From Deltaproteobacteria bacterium (lineage in GTDB: Bacteria > Bdellovibrionota_F > JAHFAK01), in contig JAHFAK010000057.1 in NCBI GenBank assembly GCA_023250585.1, positions 1 through 5,144 of the forward strand: DNA of 5,144 nucleotides. Reading direction: 5' to 3'. Both the position numbers and the translations under genes were made by a program. Below the pieces are notes generated by a model. It saw nothing but the letters and a program-made list of their open reading frames with translations, was not told the DNA's origin and made no database searches. Below, one piece after another: positions 1 through 5,144 of this stretch. The stretch's first letter is position 1. Each line of letters starts with the position of its first letter.

Positions 1-1149
1 TCGGAGTGTACAATATTCTTTCCCATCAATATATACAGGAGCAGTTGGTGTTTCTTTAATGCCGGGGAGGCTGATTCCGATGTCTGAGTATTTGCTTTCC
101 TCTGGGCCATTGACAACACAACCCATGACTGCAACTTTTAGTTTTTCAACCCCAGGATAAACTTTTTTCCATTCCTTAATTTTTTGAGCAATATGATCGG
201 TGACTTCGCGATCGAGTTTTACGAAATAATCGCTGTCAGTTCGACCACATCCAGGACAACTTGTAACTATTGGTTTAAAAAAACGAAAATTCATGTTTTG
301 TAGAAGCTGCGTACATACTTCAACTTCGCGTGCTCTTGAAATACCTGGTTCGGGAGTTAATGAAACACGAATCGTGTCGCCAATACCCTGTTGCAGAAGA
401 ATTGCAAGAGCTGCCGAGCTGGAGGCAATTCCTTTAATTCCATTTCCCGCCTCAGTTAATCCAAGATGCAGAATATAATCAGTTTTTTCTGCAAGCTTTT
501 GATATGCGCTCACCATATCTTGAATGTCTGACATTTTTACGCTGACAATGATTTTTTCTTTTGGTAATCCAAGACGGATTGCATATTCAGTGCTATGTAT
601 AGCACTTTCAATCATGGCATCGATGAGTACTTCTTTGAAATCTTTAGGATTTTTGAGCTCTGCGTTGGTGTCCATCATTTTGGTGAGTAGATCTTGATCT
701 AATGATCCCCAATTTACTCCAATACGTACTGGCTTATTATTTTTTATAGCAATTCGTATAATTGCCTCAAAATTATCATCGTGTTTTTTGCCTTTTCCGA
801 CATTTCCGGGATTTATCCGATATTTTGCCAGCGAGGCTGCGGCTTCAGGAGATTCAGAAAGTAATTTATGTCCATTATAATGGAAATCACCAATAATAGG
901 AGTCTTATACCCCTTTTGTTCAAGTTTTTCTATAATTTGTGGAACTGCTTCTGCTGCAGCTGAATCGTTAACGGTAATTCGAACAAGCTCCGATCCTGCA
1001 TCGGCAAGTTCAATGATTTGATTAACTGTTTCATCAACTCGAGCGGTTACGGTATTCGTCATTGACTGAACAACAATCGGATGATCGCTGCCAATGGGAA
1101 CATCTCCAATATAACATGAAGGGGTCTTTCGACGTTTGATTTCAAACAT
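1..1149 (-). CDS. ispG: 4-hydroxy-3-methylbut-2-enyl diphosphate synthase (IspG/GcpE), 3' end outside the window
   Basis: IspG reductively converts the cyclic diphosphate MEcPP to HMBPP, the penultimate step of the cytosolic MEP isoprenoid pathway, using a [4Fe-4S] cluster. The frame stays open for 383 codons to base 1, so only the last few tens of residues should be missing. Seen in translation: the N-terminal TIM-barrel region with [14 protein letters not shown] (about residues 20-33), [41 protein letters not shown], and the cluster domain with SCPGCGR (Cys298, Cys301) and MGCVVNGP (Cys344). These align one residue off the three cysteine ligands and the glutamate ligand known from Thermus IspG, which makes Glu351 the fourth ligand here. 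The usual glycine before that glutamate is Glu350. It is the short bacterial form without the plant-type insert. There is no Shine-Dalgarno before the ATG, and a promoter at 1156-1185 would start the mRNA at or next to the ATG. The identification is very secure. Confidence 0.97.
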
Positions 1150-1186: not shown

Positions 1187-1202
1187 TGTTCCACGTAGAA
1201 CA
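1187..1202. other. parS-like centromere site 1
   Basis: TGTTCCACGTAGAACA, an inverted repeat with one imperfect pair (C at 1192 against A at 1197). Flanking bases extend the dyad to 1184-1205. It differs from the commonly cited parS TGTTTCACGTGAAACA at positions 5, 11 and 12; the changes at 5 and 12 compensate each other. It lies between the stop of the 58-residue gene (8 bases away) and the ispG promoter, one base from its -35 box. On the plus strand it is followed by a T-rich run, so a terminator role is an alternative, but no plus-strand gene precedes it. The recurrence of the same 16-mer three more times favours a binding site. Confidence 0.75.
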
Positions 1203-1210
1203 TTTTGTTT

Positions 1211-1387
1211 TTAGAACCCCTCTTCTTTGAGTTTGCGGCTTATGCGTTTTGCTTTGTTAGACATGAATCGATTGAGAAAAAGAAGACGTTCTTCAAGATA
1301 CTCGAGCTTTTTTCGGAGAGAAAGCGCAGCAAATTGCTTCATTCGTTCAATATCAAATTCTTCTGTTTGTTTTCTTTGATTATTCAT
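1211..1387 (-). CDS. Small charged helical protein, probable partner of the upstream nucleotidyltransferase
   Basis: 58 residues starting MNNQRKQTEEFD. An in-frame ATG at 1450 would give 79 residues, but the extra part lies wholly within the upstream gene in another frame and reads unlike a protein N-terminus, so the ATG at 1387 is preferred. That ATG overlaps the last 8 bases of the nucleotidyltransferase gene, an arrangement that suggests translational coupling. The protein is basic and rich in Lys, Arg, Glu and Leu, predicted to be almost entirely helical. Its core, ALSLRKKLEYLEERLLFLNRF (residues about 21-41), resembles the 'L..KL.WLEE...F' pattern I associate with small proteins encoded beside AbiEii/DUF6036-type nucleotidyltransferases. 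By inference it is the second member of a toxin-antitoxin-like pair. Which member would be toxin cannot be told from sequence. Confidence 0.72.
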   Translation of the reverse strand: MNNQRKQTEEFDIERMKQFAALSLRKKLEYLEERLLFLNRFMSNKAKRISRKLKEEGF

Positions 1388-1945: not shown

Positions 1946-1961
1946 TGTTCCACGTGGAACA
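1946..1961. other. parS-like centromere site 2 (perfect palindrome)
   Basis: TGTTCCACGTGGAACA is a perfect 16-bp palindrome, extended by flanking A and T to 18 bp. It keeps the CACGTG core of parS and differs from TGTTTCACGTGAAACA only at the two compensating positions 5 and 12. This form is close to sites I recall for pseudomonad and Caulobacter ParB. It lies two bases beyond the stop codon of the exported protein gene and upstream of the nucleotidyltransferase promoter. Together with site 3 it shares an 18-bp stretch that includes the preceding TTAAAGA. As minus-strand RNA it could fold into a stem with an ACGT loop followed by CUUU, so a weak terminator role for the exported protein gene cannot be excluded. 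Confidence 0.85.
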
Positions 1962-1963
1962 TT

Positions 1964-3529
1964 TTATAGTTCTTCAGGTTCTCCAATGGGTTTTGGCTCA
2001 TATTCTTTTGGTTCGTTTATTATCTCTGCATTTTCAGTTTGGATAGCAGGGTGCGCGTTTTGAATAGGTACATAGCCACGACCTTTGCCTAATCTATGAT
2101 TCCAGTCTTTGATCGTATCTGAAGTTAATTCCCTGAGAGCATCTTCATTTGTATCGCATTCAAAGAGAGTTAGAAATTTGTTTTGTTTTTCTCCATTTTC
2201 ATTGGTTGAAGGAAATGTTAGATTGATTTCTGGAGAGAAGCTATACTGACCATATTTTTGTAAACATTCAGGTATATCAATATTGTTTGCCCTACACATT
2301 GCTTCCACTAACGGATTGAGAACACCTTTATCAATACCAGGATGATCGAGAAAGAGTGAAACGTCATTAGCAGAAAGGATTTGGTTAAAGAATTCTTTTT
2401 GTTTATTTTTTGTTTTTTCTAATTGATCATCAATATTTTTTATATATTCATGAACCGATTCTGTTTCACCACCCTGATTAATAATATTTTTAATCCAAGT
2501 GTCGTTTTCTTTTTTCCAGTATTCTTTAAACCGTTTGGTATTAAGGATAAGTTCTAATGAAAGAGTATTGTCGGTATAGTTTTTACAGAGGCGCTTAAAA
2601 ATGTCTCCGTATTTTTCTTTAAATGAGTTAATTTCCTGCTTAAGTCTTTCTTTAATTTCATCAGAAACGTAAATATCGTATAAATCTTCGGGAGTTTTGA
2701 CAAGCAATTCCTCCCCTGTTTTTTTGTTTTTTATCAAAATAAAAATGTACTTATCCTGAAGGAGTACTTCCCCTTCTTCAGATTCAAATACTAAGCGAGC
2801 TTCTGTATGAGGAAGCCTGTTTAAATCTAGAAGTACTTGGTTATACGTTCTTTTATCAGTTTTACTTTTTGGATCATAGAGAGTATCTAAAATTTCCATT
2901 TTAAAGACTGCCTCAAGACGAAGATATTCCCATACAACCTGAAAATGGTTTGGATTAAGAATTAAGGGTATACGAATAGTATTTCCCGTAAACCCATTTT
3001 TATCATAAAGAATTTCGAGAGCTACCTTCTTAATAAAGTTTTCAATGGTCTTATCAATAGAAAATTGATGAGTTATATACACTGTTGTTGGGTTATAGAA
3101 AAACGGAAGTAGGAATACAGGATCATTTTCAGAATTTTTAATAATTCTATTCGCTATTTCTTCCGATGTTTCGCTTATGTGTATATCAGTTACAGCCTTT
3201 TTTATCTTATTACAGTCTCCTGCTTTTACTAGACCTATTTCTTTGGATTGATGAATATTTTTTAGCTTTATTGTAGATTTTTCATGGAGCTTTTCCATAT
3301 TTTTCCATACATCATACGTAATATTTGGAAAGCCATCGTTTCTATTCTTAATAATCTGTACTAATTGTCTATATTTTTTAAGGTTCTCAGGCGTGCAAAA
3401 TGTATCATATTCTTGAGATGCTATGCAAAAAGTTTCAGTTTTTTTCTGTAGGTTATTTTCGGCAGAGACTAACAAAGAGGATGATAAAACTATAGAGCTT
3501 ATTAAAATTATTACGTTATTTGTTCTCAT
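1964..3529 (-). CDS. Exported protein of unknown function, larger member of a divergent paralogous pair
   Basis: 521 residues from the chosen ATG. The longest open frame begins at 3655, but the ATG at 3529 has an AGAGGA ribosome binding site 10 bases upstream and opens directly into a signal peptide: MRTNN, then a hydrophobic run (residues 6-21), then VSA with probable cleavage after Ala23. The extra 42 codons would bury the signal peptide and include a parS-like site. I recognise no family. It is clearly paralogous to the protein at 3708-5048: TPENLKKYRQLV (46-57), ITYD (70-73), WEYLRLEAVFKMEILD (200-215), EGEVLLQDKY (252-261), KYGDIFKRLCKN (306-317) and a C-terminal domain around FSPEINLTFP (431-440) ending in LFEC. 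Cys315 and Cys458 are conserved in the paralogue and could form a disulfide in the periplasm or outside the cell. Its middle carries roughly 45 more residues than the paralogue, and it ends in a Glu/Pro-rich tail. Confidence refers to the gene and its export, not to a function. Confidence 0.88.
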   Translation of the reverse strand: MRTNNVIILISSIVLSSSLLVSAENNLQKKTETFCIASQEYDTFCTPENLKKYRQLVQIIKNRNDGFPNITYDVWKNMEKLHEKSTIKLKNIHQSKEIGLVKAGDCNKIKKAVTDIHISETSEEIANRIIKNSENDPVFLLPFFYNPTTVYITHQFSIDKTIENFIKKVALEILYDKNGFTGNTIRIPLILNPNHFQVVWEYLRLEAVFKMEILDTLYDPKSKTDKRTYNQVLLDLNRLPHTEARLVFESEEGEVLLQDKYIFILIKNKKTGEELLVKTPEDLYDIYVSDEIKERLKQEINSFKEKYGDIFKRLCKNYTDNTLSLELILNTKRFKEYWKKENDTWIKNIINQGGETESVHEYIKNIDDQLEKTKNKQKEFFNQILSANDVSLFLDHPGIDKGVLNPLVEAMCRANNIDIPECLQKYGQYSFSPEINLTFPSTNENGEKQNKFLTLFECDTNEDALRELTSDTIKDWNHRLGKGRGYVPIQNAHPAIQTENAEIINEPKEYEPKPIGEPEEL

Positions 3530-3539
3530 GATTACATAA

Positions 3540-3545
3540 TCCTCT
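3540..3545 (-). promoter_or_regulatory. Ribosome binding site that decides the exported protein's start
   Basis: AGAGGA on the minus strand, 10 bases before the ATG at 3529. It is the clearest Shine-Dalgarno in the window and, with the signal peptide that follows, supports this start over the longer reading from 3655. Further upstream a weak TTGCAG (3578-3573) and TTATTT/TATTTT (about 3548-3554) with 18-19 bases between them might be the promoter, but this pair is too poor to list alone. Confidence 0.6.
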
Positions 3546-3602
3546 GTAAAATAAGGTTCTTGTGAAAAAATACTGCAAAAACGGTTCCATTTTTTTAAAG
3601 AA

Positions 3603-3618
3603 TGTTCCACGTAGAACA
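3603..3618. other. parS-like centromere site 3
   Basis: TGTTCCACGTAGAACA, identical in sequence and orientation to site 1, flanked by A and T. It lies in the 178-bp region between the two diverging exported-protein genes, 73 bases before the minus-strand start and 89 bases before the plus-strand start. It is upstream of both genes, so a terminator role is excluded here. It shares an 18-bp stretch with site 2 (TTAAAGAATGTTCCACGT), which may reflect duplication of the site with its flank. Confidence 0.78.
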
Positions 3619-3645
3619 TTGGAGAGAAAGCCCTCATCGTTACTT

Positions 3646-3690
3646 TTGACATCATTTTATACTTGCAATTTTATAAAACTTGTGTACTAT
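3646..3690 (+). promoter_or_regulatory. Predicted promoter region of the plus-strand exported protein gene
   Basis: A perfect -35 box TTGACA (3646-3651) is followed by possible -10 boxes TTTTAT (3669-3674, 17-base gap) or TATAAA (3672-3677, 20-base gap). A second pair, TTGCAA (3663-3668) and TACTAT (3685-3690) with 16 bases between, would start transcription near 3697, close to the ATG at 3708. Which is used cannot be decided here. The parS-like site 3 ends 27 bases upstream of the first -35 box. Confidence 0.4.
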
Positions 3691-3707
3691 CATAAATGGG
3701 TTAAAAA

Positions 3708-5048
3708 ATGAGACAAGCCGTTAAAAAGTTATTATTTTTAATTGGTTGTATACAAATTTCATTCGTTGCCGCTCAAGTAAACATCTCACCGACAATAGAT
3801 ACTTTTTCGTTTTCACCTGAAAATCTCATAAAATATAGAAAACTCGTATGGGACTATGAAAAGAAAAACAGTAAGATTACTTATGATAGCACTCGTATTG
3901 AAGAAATAGTAAAAAAATTGAATCCAAAACTCAAAATAGATCATGATCTATTTACTAAAAATGAAAGAACAAAATTCTATTTGATATCTGTTCCGAAGGT
4001 CATAGCTGAGTTATTTAAGAGTGATAGTATTAAATCACATAACTATCCTGCCGTTTTAACCGATGTGTATGTTCATCATAAAAGTATAAAAAGTAAAGAA
4101 AGCGACTATACTCAAGAAATGAAAATTGAAAAACCATTCGATGCTTATGGCTATGGTAAAGACATCATTTATGTGCCTTTACTTATTGATGAAAGAGATT
4201 TTGTTGATACGGAAGGAAAGATTAAAGAAAAGATAGAGGAAATTCCCTATACCAAAGCTCTTATTCAAACAGCTTGGGATTATATAAAACTCGAATCATG
4301 TTTTATGAATGAAGTATTTGACTTCGTTTTTGATAATAAAAAGAATATTACCTACTGGCAGGTTCTTAACACATTGGCAAAAGAAGATGATAGTGAAGCA
4401 AGTTTAGTTATGTATTCGAAAAAAGGGGAAGTGTTCATTAGAGACAGATACTTGATTAAAATAAAAGATAAAAAAACAGGAATAGAAACCGAGATTTCAA
4501 GTCCAGAAGAACTTGAAACTTTTAGATTGCAAAAGATACGGCAATATCAAGAAAAATTAGTTCAAGAACTTAACACTGCCTATGGTGATATTTTCCAAAG
4601 ATTTTGTCAGAATGCTTCTTCGTTTACCCGAGAAAGCATTGATTCTATTGAGGGAGTTAAAGAACTTATCTCATCGTTATCTCAAAATAATTATAGCAAT
4701 GCTTTAAAATATTTTGTATTTGAGATACAGATGCAAAAAATTATAGCCAGTGAATCTTCGGCATTTAACGACGATGATCATGAGGAGATAGAAGAATTTG
4801 AGTATTCATTTGAGTATACATTTGCTCCTAAGGTCATAGTATATATACCCTTTATTAATGAGCAAGGAATAATAGGACAAAAATGGTTTGAATTTTTCTC
4901 CTGTGAACCCAAGCAAGAGAATCTCGAAAAACTCACTAACGAGGATATGGCTGAAATTAATAACTTAAGTAATCAAAAAAAGTCAGAGTTTATTCATCTT
5001 CTCAAATATGAAAGCTCGGGAAAATCGAGAAGCTATACACCTCAATAA
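3708..5048 (+). CDS. Exported protein of unknown function, smaller member of a divergent paralogous pair
   Basis: 446 residues. The start MRQAVKKLLFLIGC opens a signal peptide: basic n-region to Lys7, hydrophobic core 8-20, and VAA with probable cleavage after Ala22. Only a weak GGG at 3698-3700 serves as ribosome binding site. No known family is recognised. Features shared with the protein at 1964-3529 are SPENLIKYRKLV (36-47), ITYD (57-60), WDYIKLESCFMNEVFD (190-205), EVFIRDRY (241-248), a KDKKTG loop, AYGDIFQRFCQN (291-302) and a C-terminal FAPKVIVYIPFINE (372-385) ending in FFSCE. Cys300 and Cys399 match the conserved cysteines of the paralogue; Cys198 is unique to this copy. An acidic stretch DDDHEEIEEFE (355-365) precedes the last domain. 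The conserved order suggests an N-terminal helical segment, a central domain and a C-terminal beta-rich domain. The divergence of the two sequences implies an old duplication. The cell location is periplasm, envelope or host-facing; no function can be assigned. Confidence 0.88.
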   Translation: MRQAVKKLLFLIGCIQISFVAAQVNISPTIDTFSFSPENLIKYRKLVWDYEKKNSKITYDSTRIEEIVKKLNPKLKIDHDLFTKNERTKFYLISVPKVIAELFKSDSIKSHNYPAVLTDVYVHHKSIKSKESDYTQEMKIEKPFDAYGYGKDIIYVPLLIDERDFVDTEGKIKEKIEEIPYTKALIQTAWDYIKLESCFMNEVFDFVFDNKKNITYWQVLNTLAKEDDSEASLVMYSKKGEVFIRDRYLIKIKDKKTGIETEISSPEELETFRLQKIRQYQEKLVQELNTAYGDIFQRFCQNASSFTRESIDSIEGVKELISSLSQNNYSNALKYFVFEIQMQKIIASESSAFNDDDHEEIEEFEYSFEYTFAPKVIVYIPFINEQGIIGQKWFEFFSCEPKQENLEKLTNEDMAEINNLSNQKKSEFIHLLKYESSGKSRSYTPQ

Positions 5049-5073: not shown

Positions 5074-5089
5074 TGTTCTACGTGGAACA
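5074..5089. other. parS-like centromere site 4
   Basis: TGTTCTACGTGGAACA is the exact reverse complement of sites 1 and 3, flanked by AA-A and T-TT so that the dyad spans 5071-5092. It lies in the 45-bp gap between the stop of the plus-strand exported protein gene and the stop of the truncated minus-strand reading frame, four bases from the latter. In this convergent position a bidirectional terminator hairpin is a real alternative (stem AAATGTTC over a TACGTG loop), though there is no strong U tract. Confidence 0.75.
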
Positions 5090-5093
5090 TTTA

Positions 5094-5144
5094 TCATTCT
5101 TCTGAAATGTCTAAGGACTTTGGTTGAGTTTCTGGAGCTATATC
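5094..5144 (-). CDS. C-terminal end of a minus-strand gene running off the window (tentative)
   Basis: The last 51 bases, read on the minus strand, encode DIAPETQPKSLDISEE followed by TGA, with a TAA next in frame. The peptide is hydrophilic, acidic and proline-bearing, like the Glu/Pro-rich tail of the exported protein at 1964-3529. As for that gene, the stop lies within a few bases of a parS-like site. It might therefore be another member of the same family, but 16 residues cannot show this. A second minus-strand frame is also open over this short stretch, so the call is weak. Confidence 0.4.
   Translation of the reverse strand, partial: DIAPETQPKSLDISEE

Follow-up and report, generated by a model that had tools for sequence, protein, structure and literature searches.

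In P. aeruginosa, the sites parS1-4 lie near oriC, and two of them, parS3 and parS4, are located upstream of PA0011 and PA0013; ParB binds GTTCCAC half-sites in this species, and at the intergenic parS3 and parS4 it represses the downstream genes (PMC7022226). In B. subtilis the genes adjacent to parS are unaffected, and in V. cholerae few effects on such genes were found (PMC7022226). Two ParB residues, R173 and G201 in Caulobacter, are absolutely conserved in ParB orthologues and are different in Noc (PMC7383237). The other systems that come close to the locus described here are arrays of ORFan exported paralogues, which occur in tandem or inverted form.

The stretch of DNA analysed here, referred to as the window, is 5,144 nucleotides long and forms the start of a 13.9-kb contig, C121 (L013). 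It carries two divergent genes for exported paralogues, A and B, and probably ends within a third copy, C. The best reading of the locus is that this family lies inside a chromosomal centromere, in a cluster of candidate parS sites (Table 1). These surroundings were absent from an earlier sequence-only reading of the window and are added here.

Exported paralogues A, B and C

The lengths and strands of A and B and the head-to-head gap between them are as the sequence-only reading had given them, and the five motif groups that it named are all present in both proteins, in the same order. These are (A/B) TPENLKKYRQLV/SPENLIKYRKLV, NITYD/KITYD, WEYLRLEAVFKMEILD/WDYIKLESCFMNEVFD, YGDIFKRLCKN/YGDIFQRFCQN and, in the C-terminal F.C motif, FEC/FSC. 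The two proteins are 26% identical over 527 columns (BLASTP, single comparison; 116 bits, E = 1e-32). Without their signal peptides, the mature parts align with a score of 333, compared to 50 ± 9 for shuffled sequences (Z = 33). The relationship also holds for each part taken by itself, with Z = 9.8 for the N-terminal and Z = 8.9 for the C-terminal parts. On these alignments A and B are beyond doubt true paralogues, with homology far above chance.

Table 1. Features of the window and of the adjoining sequence. Positions are those of the window unless a contig is named.
Feature	Position	Strand	Basis or remark
ispG (GcpE), 383 aa, runs off contig	1..1149	-	profile match; 3' end overlaps C98
parS TGTTCCACGTAGAACA	1187..1202	.	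gap between ispG and 58-aa ORF
58-aa ORF	1211-1387	-	overlaps nucleotidyltransferase-like gene
nucleotidyltransferase-like protein, 165 aa	1380..1877	-	DUF6036, 25.1 bits (cut-off 23.6)
parS TGTTCCACGTGGAACA, perfect palindrome	1946..1961	.	gap between nucleotidyltransferase-like gene and A
exported paralogue A (P0001), 521 aa	1964..3529	-	ORF, BLASTP, motifs, hydropathy
divergent intergenic region A/B, 178 bp, holds one parS	3530..3707	.	between start codons
parS TGTTCCACGTAGAACA	3603..3618	.	A/B divergent gap; 73 bp upstream of A start, 89 bp upstream of B start
exported paralogue B (P0002), 446 aa	3708..5048	+	ORF, BLASTP, motifs, hydropathy
parS TGTTCTACGTGGAACA	5074..5089	.	between 3' ends of B and C
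likely C-terminal tail of C, DIAPETQPKSLDISEE-stop	5094..5144	-	last 51 window bases, read from sequence
scaffold gap, 100 N, inside C	C121 5145-5244		window end (5144) = gap start
remainder of C	C121 5245-6172	-	homology to A and B
parS, fifth site, beyond window	C121 (L013) 6243-6258		70 bp upstream of C start
parS, sixth site, perfect palindrome	C98 (L024) 371-386		just after ispG stop codon

The signal peptides that had been claimed for both proteins are supported by hydropathy: each N-terminus has a basic n-region, a hydrophobic core at approximately residues 5-20 and then a stretch of small residues of the kind cleaved by signal peptidase, and every later segment is less hydrophobic than the N-terminal core. 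Both N-termini thus look compatible with Sec export. In A, the signal peptide is followed by a conserved core that extends to approximately residue 326, a C-terminal part with the F.C motif, and an acidic, proline-rich tail; a helix-rich insertion at approximately 330-425 is absent from B. An alternative in-frame start for A, the ATG at 3655, would give an ORF of 563 residues. Since this ORF would cross a parS site and make the signal peptide internal, the 521-residue start is preferred. A sigma-70 scan found 26 promoter-like sites compared to 23.7 in shuffled sequence; this is no excess, so the promoters are treated as putative.

The third copy lies just past the window, on the minus strand at approximately 5094-6172 of C121, and is split by a frameshift and by the N-gap of the scaffold; its pieces were treated separately and were not joined. 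The N-terminal 218 codons (5516-6172) are 49% identical to B and 33% to A, and the following piece (5245-5505), which is in a different frame, is 52% identical to A and 48% to B; the frameshift lies near 5516-5545. The reading frame that closes the window probably encodes the tail of C, and resembles the tail of A in its acidic, proline-rich character. Because the assembly mixes strains, the frameshift could be either real or an artefact; it may have come from an assembly error. We note that positions 1-281 of contig C98 (L024) and approximately the same positions of the window overlap in ispG with an identity of only about 95% (about 5% differences), which is a sign of a strain mixture. At the thresholds used, there is no fourth copy in the 2.24-Mb genome (164 contigs, 97% complete). 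The suggestion that the pair might be part of a larger set thus holds to the extent that a third copy exists, but the set ends there, with three copies at one locus in the whole genome.

The genes on C121 run in the order ispG(-), 58-aa ORF(-), nucleotidyltransferase-like gene(-), A(-), B(+), C(-) and a 134-residue gene(-), followed by two membrane CBS-type genes(-), lon(-), an Hsp20-like gene(-) and mnmG(+), where all names other than ispG and lon were assigned by eye. The 134-residue protein has the look of a peptide-release factor of ArfB type, from its GGQNVNK motif alone. The nucleotidyltransferase-like gene also matches AbiEii, just under the cut-off, and together with the 58-aa ORF (1211-1877) it could form a toxin-antitoxin-like pair. 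Two different full-length Lon-type proteases flank the parS cluster, one at 9157-11574 of C121 and one, identified by eye, at 14043-16487 of C98.

Searches with A and B returned nothing credible in any of the collections used, in agreement with the earlier statement that they have no recognised family; the profile searches assigned them to no known family. The best Pfam matches reached 17.1 and 12.8 bits, below the cut-offs of 25.5 and 22.9; in NCBIfam and PHROGs the best E values were 0.065 or worse for both proteins; and in PADLOC the best match (E = 0.0013, 16 bits) was of A, and not B, to a "2TM" effector model. The sub-threshold matches of A in these four collections differ from those of B. 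A sequence search of the PDB gave no credible match to either protein, and nor did tblastn searches of phages with B and of plasmids with A; the plasmid matches were UPF0149 proteins at E ≥ 0.2 and were dismissed. Pattern scans of a collection of species genomes and of viral contigs (two viral scans) found no relatives; a four-row alignment contained no conserved stretch on which a further viral scan could be based. When 386 genomes were searched by profile (59 in an earlier round), the query genome, which was one of them, was the only one with matches to the family; the 385 others, one of which belongs to the same phylum, yielded no relative. A match in genome G039, in which 69 positions spanning a KKTG-type hairpin align at E = 0.0036, was judged to be due to chance; it is located in an exported protein that looks transglutaminase-like by eye, beside an ABC transporter.

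AlphaFold models built from paralogue alignments of two to three rows had pLDDT values of 44 for B and 33 for A, too poor to define a fold, and a PDB fold search with the low-confidence model gave only matches with E > 0.5. The results support the view that A, B and C form a lineage-private family of exported paralogues, as the sequence-only reading had proposed. Its further suggestion of an envelope or host-interaction function finds no support from sequence, profiles or fold search; from the signal peptides alone we infer that A and B would act at the envelope or outside the cell.

Candidate parS sites and ParB

The palindrome TGTTCYACGTRGAACA, whose core is built from GTTCCAC half-sites, has six exact matches in the 2.24-Mb genome, and the reversed control pattern has none. 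Measured against the 16-bp TGTTYCACGTGRAACA type, two of the five sites on C121 are exact and the other three each deviate at one position of a single half-site; with up to three mismatches allowed, 0.17 sites would be expected on this contig by chance. The sites occupy six consecutive intergenic gaps, one in each. Gaps account for only about 459 bases, or about 7%, of C121 1-6667 (hand calculation), yet all five of its sites fall inside them. The start of C98 overlaps the ispG end of C121, and the six sites are therefore probably one cluster of approximately 6.5 kb. An Rfam scan of the contig found nothing.

The genome has a single match to ParB_N, at 1650-1916 of contig C162, with parA adjacent. 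Aligned by eye, its recognition helix has R and G where the Caulobacter protein has R173 and G201, and in this register the two residues point to recognition of parS type rather than of Noc type. The clustering of six sites, their GTTCCAC half-sites and this single ParB with parS-type residues lead us to read the palindromes as chromosomal parS. The gene identified by eye as mnmG lies on the same contig as the sites, and the only relative from the same class has a single matching site just after dnaN-gyrB-gyrA (genes also identified by eye); for these reasons the cluster may lie near oriC, although other contigs carry dnaA (C133) and parAB (C162). The position of the locus in a parS cluster, with one site in the 178-bp region, accounts for this shared region better than does the co-regulation of a special secreted pair.

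Origin of the array and possible effects of ParB

The account that we favour, and consider fairly probable, is that A, B and C are a private trio of Sec-type exported proteins that arose within the ParB-parS centromere cluster by local duplication with inversion of at least one copy. A and C point in one direction and B in the other. Upstream, B and C resemble each other all the way from parS, by way of TTATACTTGCAATTT, to the start codon; as this similarity runs from parS to the putative promoter, the copied unit would have included parS, and the duplications probably took the site along. Duplication of these genes cannot be the only way in which parS was copied, because sites are also found beside ispG and the nucleotidyltransferase gene. 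The sites at 3603 and 5074, which flank B, are exact 20-nt inverted repeats; this is compatible with an inversion, but short palindromes also look inverted by chance.

A different interpretation would make the palindromes terminators, or a repeat peculiar to the lineage, and the exported pair an ordinary orphan family that has no link to segregation. Several sites do directly follow stop codons, and the palindrome at 1946 was caught with its flanks by a terminator scan (10-bp stem, T-rich tail); however, that scan yielded three hits compared to 1.8 expected, which is no excess, and the site at 3603 lies between divergent starts, where a terminator is not needed. There are moreover just six copies in 2.24 Mb, in a single cluster, and their core consists of the half-sites recognised by the ParB of P. 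aeruginosa (PMC7022226). We consider this interpretation highly improbable.

The proteins might alternatively be secreted factors for interaction with a host or prey, diversifying under selection at a site where parS is incidental. Their signal-peptide-like N-termini, restriction to one lineage, length differences created by insertions and strong divergence (26-50% identity) are all in keeping with this; but profile searches detected none of the domains, repeats or motifs that characterise known secreted factors, and the divergence fits relaxed constraint equally well, one copy being frameshifted, so that we judge such a role to be rather unlikely. The same frameshift could be taken to mean that the family is decaying, with C already a pseudogene, the copies drifting to loss and the function minor. 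This is quite improbable, given that A and B retain long open frames and ordered motifs despite their low identity, which implies past or present selection, and that C is open apart from the one visible frameshift, which lies close to the scaffold gap of an assembly that mixes strains.

Returning to the trio in its centromere cluster, ParB would nucleate at each predicted parS, slide over the neighbouring genes and mark the segment for chromosome segregation. It may in addition lower transcription from nearby promoters, by analogy with parS3 and parS4 of P. aeruginosa: the sites are upstream of all three genes, 73, 89 and 70 bp from the start codons of A, B and C respectively. Some damping of A, B and C by ParB is on this analogy plausible, and probably occurs. 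The location of the sites may also mean merely that gaps tolerate them. A stronger proposal, that ParB loaded at the site in each gap switches A, B and C according to the state of the partition complex and so ties secretion of these envelope proteins to replication or the cell cycle, with the gene-parS duplication being retained for the sake of both sites and proteins, is in our view very unlikely.

Comparison with known systems

The locus suggests that duplication and divergence can take place inside a chromosomal centromere, with parS in each gap, in a family confined to a single deep-branching lineage, one other genome of the phylum having been compared. If ParB does control A, B and C, they would provide a clean natural test of a promoter parS as a transcriptional switch; without such control, they would be an orphan family placed in a parS cluster of the usual kind. 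In common with arrays of ORFan exported paralogues, the genes encode signal-peptide-like N-termini, have been duplicated locally, have diverged strongly and belong to no family, but here they are found inside a parS cluster and number only three. In common with parS1-4 of P. aeruginosa, several intergenic sites with GTTCCAC half-sites are clustered, some of them upstream of genes. Repression by ParB has been reported in P. aeruginosa, whereas the sites here are candidate ParB sites. The arrangement also differs from that of P. aeruginosa in that six consecutive gaps hold one site each, and in that three of the intervening genes encode exported paralogues.
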